A stretch of 35,911 bases of DNA, taken from assembly GCA_018660265.1 (NCBI GenBank), contig JABJKS010000081.1:1-35911 (forward strand), in the 5' to 3' direction. The stretch comes from Rhodospirillaceae bacterium (GTDB lineage Bacteria; Pseudomonadota; Alphaproteobacteria; GCA-2731375). Position 1 is the first letter of the stretch; every line of letters begins with the position of its first letter. Both the position numbers and the translations under genes were made by a program. Of this stretch, positions 28,116 through 32,996 are shown in pieces. The notes under the pieces are model-generated. The model saw nothing but the letters and a program-made list of their open reading frames with translations. It was not told where the DNA came from and made no database searches.

Positions 28116-28802
28116 TTAGGTGCCATCATCGGAAGCACCGTTATCGGAAGCGCCAAGGCGATAGCCCAGGCCGCGCACGGTTTCGATCAAACCGGCCTGG
28201 GTCTTGCGGCGCAGGCGGCCCACGAAAACCTCGATAGTATTGGAATCCTTATCGAAATCCTGCTCGTACAGATGTTCGACCAATTCCGTGCGGGAAATAA
28301 CCTTGCCCTGGTGGTGCATCAGATAGGACAACAGGCGGAATTCCAGGGCCGTCAATGATACGTTGCCACCATCGAGGGTCACTTTCGAGGCGGCAATATC
28401 CAGGCGCAACGGCCCGCATTCGATTTCATTGCTGGCGTGGCCCGCAGCCCGGCGCAGCAAGGCCCGGATGCGGGCCAGCATTTCCTCAATATGAAACGGT
28501 TTTGCCAGATAATCATCCGCGCCCGCATCAATGCCCGATACCTTGTCGGACCAGCGGTCCCGCGCCGTCAGGATCAGAACCGGCATGTCCCGGCCATCCC
28601 GCCGCCATTGTTGCAGCACCGTGATACCATCCATTGTGGGCAGGCCCAGGTCCAATATGACCGCATCATAGGGCTCCGTATCGCCCAAAAAATGCCCCTC
28701 TTCCCCGTCATGGGCCAGATCCACCGCATAGCCCGCATCGACCAGGGCCCCGCGTAATTGCCGGGCCAGATCCGCGTCATCCTCAACCACCAAAAGCCGC
28801 AT
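28116..28802 (-). CDS. OmpR/PhoP-family response regulator
   Basis: A 228-aa two-domain regulator. The receiver (about 1-115) has the acidic pair EDD, the phosphorylation site Asp51 in ILDLGLPTMDG, a Thr in LILTARD and Lys in YLAKPF. The winged-helix DNA-binding domain (about 125-220) has LTALEFRLLSYLMHHQGKVISR and the recognition part DSNTIEVFVGRLRRK. A short Ser/Asn/Asp-rich tail follows. It is cognate with the kinase three bases downstream and starts five bases after the PepSY gene. Targets cannot be read from this window. Confidence 0.94.
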   Translation of the reverse strand: MRLLVVEDDADLARQLRGALVDAGYAVDLAHDGEEGHFLGDTEPYDAVILDLGLPTMDGITVLQQWRRDGRDMPVLILTARDRWSDKVSGIDAGADDYLAKPFHIEEMLARIRALLRRAAGHASNEIECGPLRLDIAASKVTLDGGNVSLTALEFRLLSYLMHHQGKVISRTELVEHLYEQDFDKDSNTIEVFVGRLRRKTQAGLIETVRGLGYRLGASDNGASDDGT

Positions 28803-28807
28803 CAGCC

Positions 28808-29233
28808 TTACCTCCCGCCCTGCAGGACACGGCCTGATTTGGCATCCACCGTCAGCCGCCGCACCTGATCGCGAGGTGCCAGCAACTTTATACGATAAAT
28901 CCAGCGCCCTTGCCGATTTTGCCCCAAATTCGCGTCCAGCAAACGCCCAGGGTAACGCCGCCCGACGGATTGCATGATCTGGCGGAGGGGCAGCACATCG
29001 CCCGCACTGACCGCATCGCGGGCGCGGTCGTGATCACGCCTGTTTTTCTTGCGCTGCTTGTTGCGCTTAGATTGCGCCAGCTGCCATTTGCCCGCTGCCA
29101 CACGGGGCACAACCTGCTCCGCGCGCTCCCCGCGCCAAACGCCGGGTCCGGCCACAGCATGCGACGCGCGGGCCAAACCAGGCAGCGCCAGTACAGTGAT
29201 CAAAACCAATATGGAGAGACATCGTTGAACCAT
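28808..29233 (-). CDS. Secreted PepSY-domain protein
   Basis: About 141 aa, with a signal peptide (CLSILVLITVLALPGLARA) and a very basic middle (QSKRNKQRKKNRRDHDRARD). The C-terminal PepSY domain contains LRQIMQSVGRRYPGRLLDANLG, WIYRIKLLA and VDAKSGRVLQGG. The frame is open to 29365, but ATG 29233 starts the signal peptide and has TTAGGA six bases upstream. It is first in the operon with the regulator and kinase. PepSY proteins encoded beside PhoPQ-type systems are thought to bind or inhibit periplasmic partners. I infer it feeds the kinase's periplasmic input or is a target of the system. Confidence 0.82.
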   Translation of the reverse strand: MVQRCLSILVLITVLALPGLARASHAVAGPGVWRGERAEQVVPRVAAGKWQLAQSKRNKQRKKNRRDHDRARDAVSAGDVLPLRQIMQSVGRRYPGRLLDANLGQNRQGRWIYRIKLLAPRDQVRRLTVDAKSGRVLQGGR

Positions 29234-29287
29234 GCCATATCCTAACCCAACCGACCTGAACGGCGGGTGAATGAATTTACTGTGGCT

Positions 29288-29323
29288 AATATTGACTTCA
29301 CGGGCCTTGGCCGGGTATCTGAC
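29288..29323 (+). repeat. 36-bp element, copy A
   Basis: AATATTGACTTCAC (29288-29301), ten variable bases and CGGGTATCTGAC (29312-29323). The same two blocks with the same spacing recur at 31236-31271. Overall 30 of 36 positions match. The blocks contain TTGACT and TATCTG 18 bases apart, so it may be a promoter. The variable middle can form a short imperfect hairpin (4 of 5 pairs). Confidence 0.7.
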
Positions 29324-29390
29324 TGTCACCGCAATTGCGACGCTGACAATACCTCCAGAACCCACAAAACATCAATGCAGAAAAAATCGA

Positions 29391-29512
29391 ATCCACAATC
29401 ACGGTCAAAATATATTGCTTATTATCAGTATGTTAAAATAAAAAATAAATTTATATATAAAATTATATAGACATTTATAATTTAGACTCTATATGGTGTT
29501 CTATCGATACCA
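29391..29512 (+). other. AT-rich upstream region
   Basis: Long A/T runs (for example AAAATAAAAAATAAATTTAT) contrast sharply with the GC-rich surroundings. It lies just upstream of the unknown gene at 29531 and probably holds its promoter. Such tracts are typical of horizontally acquired regulatory DNA bound by silencing proteins. Several TATAAT-like hexamers occur, but no single promoter stands out. Confidence 0.55.
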
Positions 29513-29530
29513 GGTAAGTAGGAGAAGGTC

Positions 29531-30268
29531 ATGACCAAGTTTACCCAGAGCATAATTCATGTGGTTGATCCCGCACCCAGCATAAACGTAAGGCCTGGCA
29601 GCATACGCGACAGACACTTCAAGCTAATGGCGCAAGCTGACGGAAAAACCGTGGCAGAATTCTACGCCCTCACAGAGGCTGACGCGGACATACCTGGCCG
29701 CGCTTCCAAGAAAACGATCAGTCGCAGCGTCGACGCGGGTCAAATTACCTTAGAAGCGCCAAAGACGGTGGTAATGGTTCTGACGGCGAAGAGCGCAGAG
29801 GAACTTCGTCAAATTGGTGGAAGTGGAGACTGGAGACTGAACCCAAAAATAGTTGCGGTTACAGATTTTGTGGTTTGCTGTCGCAATGTCTTCCACGAAG
29901 GATCGAGACACACTACTAATCATGGGGAGGGATTCTTGATTGCTAAGATTAAGGGATTGAAGCCATCAGTGGAAAGTCCAGGTCGCCTCGTAATTCAGTT
30001 CAAGGAAGTCGCAGAAATAGCAATGGACAAGCTGTGGACCGGCGACCGCAACCCAGTTCGATATACGACATTGGCCGATCTTGAAATTGACCTGAGATCA
30101 TTGGATTTTCAGCCGTTGTCTGAAGTGCGGGAGCCCGTTGTTGCAAAAAATTTGAAAGCAATCGACGAGAAGGAACCAAGCGGCCTTACCATAGCCGAAG
30201 CCAAAAAGGGCTTAGCCACTACCTTTGGTGTTGATGAAAATGCTGTCGAGATCACGATACGGGGGTGA
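29531..30268 (+). CDS. Protein of unknown function (accessory gene)
   Basis: A 245-aa protein I do not recognise. A good AGGAG lies before the ATG. It has no signal peptide or membrane helix and looks soluble. Features visible: an N-terminal segment with SIRDRHFKLMAQADGKTVAE, a Thr/Ser/Lys-rich KKTISRSVDAG, a central CCRNVFHEGSRHTTNHGEGF with two adjacent Cys and three His, and a C-terminal 30-residue piece (SGLTIAEAKKGLATTFGVDE) set off by a charged linker, which looks like a separable module. Codon choice is less GC-biased than the neighbours, and the upstream DNA is AT-rich. It is bracketed by repeated elements, so acquisition by transfer is likely. Confidence 0.68.
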   Translation: MTKFTQSIIHVVDPAPSINVRPGSIRDRHFKLMAQADGKTVAEFYALTEADADIPGRASKKTISRSVDAGQITLEAPKTVVMVLTAKSAEELRQIGGSGDWRLNPKIVAVTDFVVCCRNVFHEGSRHTTNHGEGFLIAKIKGLKPSVESPGRLVIQFKEVAEIAMDKLWTGDRNPVRYTTLADLEIDLRSLDFQPLSEVREPVVAKNLKAIDEKEPSGLTIAEAKKGLATTFGVDENAVEITIRG

Positions 30269-30298
30269 TTGCGATGCCTGCACAAACCATAAGAAGGA

Positions 30299-30364
30299 TT
30301 GGGGTCAGGTCTTTCATTTTGCATTAATGCGTGATCCGAAATTACGGTGACACGGTGTAACCCC
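30299..30364. mobile_element. REP / IS200-like (Y1 transposon) flank remnant
   Basis: TTGGGGTCAGGTCTTTCATT followed by the palindrome GCATTAATGC and ATTACGGTGACACGGTGTAA. From memory, this combination resembles the conserved non-coding ends of REP-associated tyrosine transposase (IS200-like) units. No transposase gene accompanies it. ACACGGTGT is a further small palindrome. The identification is from recollection of the motif, not a search. Confidence 0.4.
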
Positions 30365-30382
30365 GACGGCGGCAGAGCTGGC

Positions 30383-31147
30383 TCAGCGCGCGGCGTAGCC
30401 ACCATCCACCGGCATGGCGACGCCGGTGACGAAGCTGGCGGCATCACTGGCGAGGAATGCAGCTACTTCCGCTATTTCCTCCGGCTGGCCGAGCCGCCCC
30501 ATCGGGTGCAGCTCTTTGAGGAAATCCTCATGGCCTTCACGCTCGAGCATAGGGGCAAGAATGGGCGTCTTGATATAGCCGGGGCAGATCGCATTGACGC
30601 GCACACCGACCTTGCCGAAGGCGACGGCGAATTGCTTGGTCAACCCGACAACACCATGCTTGCTGGCCACATAGGCGCTGGCGGCTTCGATCGTGACGGG
30701 GTCGTCGTGATATTCGAAGGGCCGCATCAGCGCGCCGAGACCCGCGACAGAGGCTGTGTTGACGATCGCGCCGCCGCCCTGGCCCGCCATGATCGGGCAG
30801 GCGTGGATCAGGCCGTAGTAGACGCCATCCAGGTTGATGGCGGTGGTCGTCTCCCAATTCTTGCCGCCAACGCCTGCATTGTTCATGAGCACGTCCAACC
30901 GGCCCAGATCGCGGGTCGTCTTGGTGAGCGCTTCCTTCACCGCCTCCTCGTTGGCGGTATCAAGCGCGCTAACCACAGCCTTTGCACCCAATTCCTCGAC
31001 CCGCGCGGCGGTGGCCTGCGCGCCCTGCTCGTTAATGTCGGAGCAGACAACGGTGGAGCCTTCCCCAGCGAGCTTCAGCGCCATGGCTTCGCCGATGCCG
31101 GAGCCAGCGCCGGTTACAAAAGAGACGCGGTTTTCAAATGCGGACAT
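30383..31147 (-). CDS. Short-chain dehydrogenase/reductase (classical SDR)
   Basis: A 254-aa NAD(P)-dependent oxidoreductase. The cofactor motif is TGAGSGIG (residues 12-19), and Asp37 at the end of strand 2 (VVCSDIN) favours NAD(H). NNAG is at 89-92, and the catalytic residues are Ser133, Tyr159 and Lys163 (YVASK). A slightly long loop (RPFEYHDDPVTIEAAS) lies before the catalytic Tyr and may shape the substrate pocket. The C-terminal VTGVAMPVDGGYAAR is standard. AGGAGA precedes the ATG. It lies inside the segment bracketed by the two 36-bp elements. The substrate is unknown. Confidence 0.9.
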   Translation of the reverse strand: MSAFENRVSFVTGAGSGIGEAMALKLAGEGSTVVCSDINEQGAQATAARVEELGAKAVVSALDTANEEAVKEALTKTTRDLGRLDVLMNNAGVGGKNWETTTAINLDGVYYGLIHACPIMAGQGGGAIVNTASVAGLGALMRPFEYHDDPVTIEAASAYVASKHGVVGLTKQFAVAFGKVGVRVNAICPGYIKTPILAPMLEREGHEDFLKELHPMGRLGQPEEIAEVAAFLASDAASFVTGVAMPVDGGYAAR

Positions 31148-31235
31148 TGTGGGTGTTCTCCTGGTTTGATTTCGGTGACAGTAACTCCGATTCCAATTTT
31201 TTCAAACTGACGCACTACCCTCCATTTCGTACGGC

Positions 31236-31271
31236 AATATTGACTTCACCGTCCCGAGACGGGTATCTGAC
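31236..31271 (+). repeat. 36-bp element, copy B
   Basis: The same outer blocks as the copy at 29288-29323: AATATTGACTTCAC (31236-31249) and CGGGTATCTGAC (31260-31271). The variable middle pairs as CCGTC/GACGG around CCGA, a perfect five-pair hairpin. TTGACT (31240-31245) and TATCTG (31264-31269), 18 bases apart, could serve as the ettA promoter, ending about 47 bases before its ATG. Confidence 0.7.
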
Positions 31272-31316: not shown

Positions 31317-32996
31317 ATGGCGTCTTATCAATACATCTACACCATGCGCAATTTGCGCAAGGTATTCCCCGGTGGCCGGGAAGTTCTGAAAGACATCACT
31401 CTGGCGTTTTTTCCGGGCGCAAAAATCGGTGTTATCGGCGGTAATGGCGCGGGTAAATCGACCCTGCTGCGGATCATGGCCGGTAAGGAGACGGAATTCA
31501 TCGGGGAGGCCTGGGCCGCCGAAGGCGTCCGCGTGGGCATGTTGAGCCAGGAGCCGGAGCTGGACCCGGAAAAAGATGTGCTGGGCAATGTCACCGACGG
31601 CGTGCGCGAAACCAAGGATCTGCTGGATCGGTTTGAGGCTGTCAGCCTGCGCTTTGCCGAGGAAATGACAGACGACGAAATGAACGCCCTGATCGAAGAA
31701 CAGGGCGAATTGCAGGAACAGATCGACGCCAAGGACGCCTGGGATCTGGACCGCCAATTGGAGATCGCCATGGATGCTTTGCGTTGCCCAGCGGGTGATG
31801 CGGATGTGACCAAACTGTCGGGTGGTGAGCGGCGGCGGGTGGCGTTATGCCGGTTGCTGTTGGAAAAGCCCGATCTGTTGTTGTTGGATGAACCGACCAA
31901 CCATCTGGATGCGGAATCCGTGGCCTGGCTGGAACGCTTTCTGCACGATTATACCGGCACCGTGGTGGCCATCACCCATGACCGTTATTTCCTGGATAAT
32001 GTCGCCGGTTGGATTTTGGAATTGGATCGCGGCCAGGGCATTCCCTACGAAGGCAATTATTCCGGCTGGCTGGTACAGAAACAAAAACGCCTGGAACAGG
32101 AAGGCAAGCAGGAAGAGGCCCGCCAGCGCAGCCTGGCGGATGAACTGGAATGGATCCAGCAATCCCCCCGGGCCCGCCAGGCGAAAAGCAAGGCGCGTAT
32201 CCGGGCCTATGACGAACTGCTGGCCCAGGACGTCGGCGCCCGCGCCAAAGGGGCGCAAATCGTCATTCCGCCAGGGCCCCGCCTGGGTGATCTGGTGATC
32301 GAGGCTGTGGGCCTGGAAAAAGCCTACGACGACCGCCTGTTGATCGACGACCTGAACTTCAAATTGCCGCCCGGCGGCATTGTCGGTGTGATCGGCCCCA
32401 ACGGGGCCGGCAAGACCACCCTGTTCCGGATGCTGGTGGGGGAGGAAACCCCCGATAAAGGCGATCTGCGGGTCGGTGATACAGTTCAGTTGGGCTACGT
32501 GGATCAATCCCGCGACGCACTGTCGGGGGAGGCCACGGTTTGGCAGGAAGTCTCCAACGGCGCAGAGGAAATTATGCTGGGCAAGCGCGGCGTCAACAGC
32601 CGGGCCTATTGCACCTGGTTCGGCTTTCGCGGTGCGGATCAGCAAAAGCCCGTGGGGCAACTATCGGGCGGTGAACGCAACCGGGTGCATCTGGCCAAGA
32701 TGTTGAAATCCGGCGCCAACCTGATCCTGCTTGATGAGCCAACCAACGACCTGGACGTGGACACCCTGCGCGCTCTGGAAGAAGCTTTGTTGCAATTTGC
32801 CGGCTGCGCCATGGTGATCTCCCATGATCGCTGGTTCCTGGACCGCATCGCCACCCACATTCTGGCCTTTGAAGGCGACAGCCACGTGGAATGGTTCGAA
32901 GGCAACTACGAAGCCTACGAGGAAGACCGCAAACGCCGCCTGGGCCACGAAGCCGACCAACCCCACAGGATCAAGTACAAACCAATTTCGCGGTGA
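31317..32996 (+). CDS. ettA: Energy-dependent translational throttle protein (ABC-F)
   Basis: EttA (559 aa) is a soluble ABC-F ATPase that binds the ribosomal E site and gates the first elongation steps according to ATP level. Domain 1 has Walker [11 protein letters not shown] (about 41-50), [16 protein letters not shown] and [12 protein letters not shown]. The charged linker between domains ([20 protein letters not shown]) is the tRNA-contacting region. Domain 2 has [10 protein letters not shown] (about 358-367), [15 protein letters not shown] and [11 protein letters not shown]. The C-terminus IKYKPISR is standard for EttA. The last eight codons plus stop are part of a sequence repeated at 35674..35719, so the 3' end may have been supplied by an inserted element. 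Confidence 0.95.

Follow-up and report, generated by a model that had tools for sequence, protein, structure and literature searches.

A conserved ettA promoter very probably present twice around an accessory insertion in a Rhodospirillaceae bacterium

The stretch of Rhodospirillaceae DNA described here (35,911 nucleotides of contig JABJKS010000081.1, referred to as the window) contains two 36-bp elements which lie in the same orientation on the forward strand, at 29288-29323 and 31236-31271, and enclose a segment of 1,912 bp (29324-31235). Immediately beyond the right element is ettA (31317-32996, forward strand), which encodes the ABC-F energy-dependent translational throttle protein (TIGR03719, 969.6 bits, cut-off 806.75); the distance from the 36-mer to the ATG is 45 nt. 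This arrangement raises the question of what the paired elements are and how they came to stand on both sides of the enclosed genes. The most satisfactory answer is that a conserved promoter of a core gene is, very probably, present twice around an accessory insertion.

The original prediction, made from the sequence of the window, had described two direct elements of 36 bp with the same internal spacing, and its coordinates are right. All 26 specified box positions are matched between the two copies with 0 mismatches and identical spacing, and 4 of the 10 positions of the N10 center are equal. A Fisher test of boxes against center gives p = 1.1e-4, which is not an independent test because the boundary between box and center was taken from the match itself. 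The peptide reading VRYP-x4-EVNI, which had been noticed in frame on the minus strand of both copies, is also real and follows from the identity of the DNA (36 bases correspond to 12 codons). In the genome to which the window belongs (5,547,006 bases, 121 contigs) both copies were recovered at up to three mismatches and no third copy was found, the reversed pattern gave 0 matches, and 100 dinucleotide shuffles gave a mean of 0 matches. A looser form of the pattern, also with up to three mismatches, occurs at 54 places of this genome (both copies counted) vs. 75 for the reversed control, that is, at background level, and the wider promoter class TTGACT-N16-19-TATCWG occurs at 4 places vs. 0 in the control, two of the 4 being the 36-mers. 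Even with their flanks included, the copies share no exact match of more than 14 bp, so that mis-assembly through the repeat is unlikely. A tandem duplication exceeding the 36-mer was considered and rejected, as the flanks of the two copies differ beyond it.

The nature of the element was addressed by comparison with ten congeners (G001 to G010). The ettA gene was found in nine of them (all but G006), which provide the readable ettA upstream regions, and seven of these nine have a single TTG(A/C)C...GGGTATC(A/T)G element within the 200 bp upstream of ettA, with 39-86 nt separating the end of its -10 box from the ATG. The -35 side reads TTGACTT in six of the seven and TTGCCAT in G003, and the hexamers are 17 bp apart in G003 and G008 and 18 bp apart in the other five. 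In G001 and G009 the region upstream of ettA gave a loose TTG-N18-TATATA match only, with a permissive pattern that was written after the other elements had been seen. When a shorter form of the element was searched with up to two mismatches in 143 genomes, including that of the window, it was found in the window's own genome and in three congeners, one copy each, and it directly precedes ettA in all three congeners. An alignment of 30-mers from the seven sequences with an 18-bp spacer (the two window copies and five congeners) has two invariant blocks, TTGACTT (columns 1-7) and CGGGTATC (columns 21-28), while 11 of the 13 columns between the boxes vary and two (CC) are constant.

The boxes are constant, the spacer drifts in sequence and varies in length by one base, and the element keeps a set place before a core gene. 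This suggests that the 36-mer is probably the ettA promoter, of sigma-70 type and conserved in the genus; its activity as a promoter is what we infer from this pattern. In the left copy the -35 box TTGACT would begin at 29292 and be followed by an 18-bp spacer and by TATCTG, ending at 29321. What recalls sigma-70 promoters is that a core gene is closely preceded by a pair of conserved hexamers, which have promoter spacing and a drifting sequence between them; the difference is that the -10 box is here TATC(A/T)G instead of TATAAT and is preceded by a conserved CGGG. The -10 consensus is TATAAT, with which TATCTG shares 3 of 6 letters, and a generic promoter scan using this consensus returned neither copy for that reason; this consensus is taken from E. 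coli and is perhaps not valid for this group. The right copy looks like the ettA promoter by position, as in the relatives. The proposal that the 36-mers are shared strong promoters was thus half right, the part that stands being that the right copy occupies the place of the relatives' ettA promoter. None of the literature titles listed has the ettA promoter or its duplication as its topic.

The variable centers had also been read as hairpins in which one paired position changes from T-A to G-C with pairing maintained. The folds did not stand out from chance, since 165 of 200 shuffles for the left copy and 62 of 200 for the right one folded at least as well. The covariation was evaluated in an alignment of six sequences (the two window copies and four congeners) from which G002, G003, G008, G001 and G009 were left out, G003 and G008 having 17-bp spacers. 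One pair does change as described. None of the five pairs, however, is intact in all six sequences, and shuffling gave an equally good result in 357 of 500 cases. On the basis of both sets of shuffles the hairpin reading of the centers was rejected.

The neighbors of the two copies bear on how the arrangement may have arisen. To the left lies a PepSY-like gene (28808-29233, minus strand; Pfam 22.4 bits, under the cut-off of 24). This gene also adjoins the ettA promoter on the left in six of the seven congeners that bear the motif; G002 is without a PepSY match. The PepSY matches are partial in G004 and G010 and nearly full-length in G003, G005, G007 and G008, and in the latter four the gap between the PepSY gene and ettA is about 135-205 bp vs. 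2,083 bp in the window. To the left of the left copy the sequence is the flank that is found on the PepSY side in the congeners (by eye, and by BLAST to G006 and G008), and to the right of the right copy it is, by eye, the ettA leader. When the interval of the window was compared by BLAST with the congener loci examined, no match longer than 40 bp was obtained, the matches being confined to the promoter, the PepSY-side flank (G006, G008) and scattered stretches of 15-24 bp, and congeners whose PepSY-ettA junction is simple lack the enclosed segment there. With the PepSY-side flank at the left copy, the ettA leader at the right one and 1.9 kb between them, an insertion appears to have split the locus, leaving the ettA promoter present twice. 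Of the three explanations first put forward for the paired elements, two hold together, in that the element looks like a promoter (of ettA) and flanks an inserted segment. In six congeners a single copy of the element connects the PepSY side directly with ettA; the allele in which the 28.8-29.3 kb region leads directly to ettA exists in these six.

In the space that separates the promoter from the PepSY gene there is a direct repeat, TGAA-N7-TGAA (29257-29271), which was found in eight of ten genomes checked (not in G004 and G007). The boxes of OmpR-type response regulators have a period like the 11 bp of this repeat, and an OmpR-type response-regulator gene (28116-28802) adjoins the PepSY gene. 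Autoregulation through TGAA-N7-TGAA would be plausible, given the similar period and the regulator gene beside the PepSY gene. In G007 the PepSY-like gene (locus L068, contig C74, 52264-52662) has two in-frame TAA codons in the aligned stretch and is possibly decayed.

The segment between the copies comprises, as had been listed in the original prediction, an AT-rich tract (29324-29530, 31.4% GC), a gene without a known name and a gene for an SDR-family oxidoreductase. The former gene (29531-30268, forward strand) encodes a 245-aa protein of unknown function that received no name from Pfam, NCBIfam or PADLOC; its residues 79-245 match the phage family phrog_37247 (E 2.4e-29), which is itself of unknown function. 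Among 288 other genomes a single relative of this protein was found, in G001 (43% identity over residues 80-245), and a further search gave 11 loci (six in Rhodococcus, three in Nocardia, one in Speluncibacter and one on a MAG contig that equals the G001 contig in length). Two Brevundimonas phages encode a relative with 31% identity. Compared with members of the family, the protein of the window has roughly 75 additional residues at its N-terminus. The SDR protein (30383-31147, minus strand; 254 aa) is encoded by DNA of 63.4% GC and has no relative at E<=1e-60 in the ten congeners (all candidates scored) and none at E<=1e-90 in the 288 other genomes (up to nine candidates per genome scored). 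Within its own genome the segment gave five weak matches, all inside the SDR gene, and no second copy of the segment, with 40 of 83 candidate places scored. Six further ORFs of at least 60 aa that overlap the segment have no Pfam match above cut-off (an overlapping ORF of 67 aa gave two weak ones below it), no integrase or transposase was present among the two genes and these six ORFs, and neither Rfam, at gathering scores, nor a tRNA search gave a match within the window. The listing had also included a REP/IS200-like fragment. This label was not borne out, as a search at up to three mismatches for the 32-mer at 30299-30330 gave one occurrence in the genome of the window and none in 142 relatives, a count with which a lone REP/IS200 remnant would still be compatible.

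From the comparison of the junctions we infer a history in which foreign DNA, carrying the phage-related gene and the SDR gene, would have entered the short intergenic region between PepSY and ettA in the lineage of the window, after which the promoter stretch would have been present twofold, on the PepSY side and just upstream of ettA. Because the stretch stands on both sides of the insert, ettA would have retained a promoter. The second copy may have arisen by duplication within the lineage, for instance if a circle with the promoter on it had integrated by a single crossover or if the template had been switched during repair; alternatively, it may have been imported from a relative. In the 30-mers the left copy differs at 4 positions from G007, at 5 from G002 and at 6 from the right copy, and the right copy differs at 5 from G005 and at the same 6 from the left one. 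This pattern of nearest neighbors, which is based on few positions (30 bases), does not favor a simple recent duplication. On the other hand, the window copies are identical outside the 10-bp center, where none of the five congeners agrees with them fully.

The arrangement resembles other accessory insertions at variable core junctions in that genes rare among the relatives lie between two conserved neighbors and in that other congeners have other DNA at the PepSY-ettA junction; it differs in that the promoter of a neighbor stands here on both sides of the insert. In G001 (locus L071, contig C274) other DNA is found between the PepSY gene and ettA. In G006 (locus L070, contig C52) other DNA, differing in content from that of G001, extends from the PepSY gene up to the end of the contig, and in G009 the sequence upstream of ettA is unrelated and the PepSY match is on another contig. 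These cases hint that the junction is variable in the genus, which is not the same as a measured hotspot; they amount to a hint because contig ends limit what G006 and G009 can tell. A more far-reaching and rather speculative view, which we consider unlikely though worth stating, is that the junction would be a recurrent landing place at which DNA is kept only if a promoter of ettA remains, by duplication in the window or by a new supply in G001 and G009, and that the stranded left copy would be used by the acquired gene, its boxes being under selection.

One observation lies outside what a promoter present twice around an insertion explains, namely an inverted repeat near the two ends of the segment. 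Its left arm (14 nt, 29322-29335, forward strand) abuts the left promoter copy and could represent the end of an element, and its right arm (14 nt, 31169-31182, minus strand) ends 53 bp before the right copy; the arms are complementary at 13 of 14 positions. An equally good pair occurred somewhere in 71 of 300 randomized sequences, and a pair with its left arm within five bases of the left-copy junction in 0 of 300, the latter test having been framed after the repeat was seen. Such a repeat would be expected of a non-autonomous, transposon-like cassette of about 29322-31182, mobilized by a transposase in trans, that inserted immediately after the left promoter, in which case the other promoter copy would have arisen separately. 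What recalls elements of this kind is that a short inverted repeat is found close to either end of the segment. This history is nevertheless improbable, since apart from the post hoc design of the junction test the right arm falls short of the right copy and the duplication of the promoter is consequently left unexplained; moreover, no transposase is present among the ORFs scanned, a target-site duplication is not evident by eye, and the inverted-repeat ends were not found at the loci examined in other genomes. The inverted repeat and the nearest-neighbor result lower the confidence placed in the duplicated-promoter model.

The conservation of all box positions in both copies despite their differing centers could also be explained if each 36-mer had been selected in its own right, as a promoter or operator within a small shared regulon, and if the left one drove the gene for the 245-aa protein, at which it points from 209 nt upstream. 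This seems very unlikely, considering that in its PepSY-side flank and in its position the left copy corresponds to the ettA promoter of the congeners, that no further copies are present in the genome, and that a promoter-like site is located nearer the gene (29468-29497), although the scan gave 3 sites vs. 1.9 in shuffles.

The presence of direct repeats around a segment with a phage-related gene would likewise be consistent with an integrative element of the site-specific kind, now without its integrase, whose att-like sites the copies would be. The center at which strands are exchanged must be identical in att sites. In the two copies it is the center that differs (4 of 10 positions identical) and the arms that match, and neither the two genes nor the six additional ORFs that were scanned encode an integrase, which makes integration of this type extremely unlikely; congeners without the insert also have the same boxes with varying centers. 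A dispersed repeat, the remaining option of the original prediction, is refuted for this genome by the two copies recovered genome-wide at up to three mismatches, and no observation was found in its favor. With two copies in 5.55 Mb, a mean of 0 in shuffles and a single element of this type upstream of ettA in each of seven congeners, the chance that the pair is such a repeat or a fortuitous resemblance is practically negligible.

A duplicated ettA promoter around an accessory insertion is thus the preferred account of this locus. It would provide a small, testable case in which foreign DNA has settled directly before a core translation gene that still has a promoter, with a second copy of that promoter left on the far side of the insert. 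The case would be ordinary in kind and slightly unusual in this respect, and it does not point to a new type of system.
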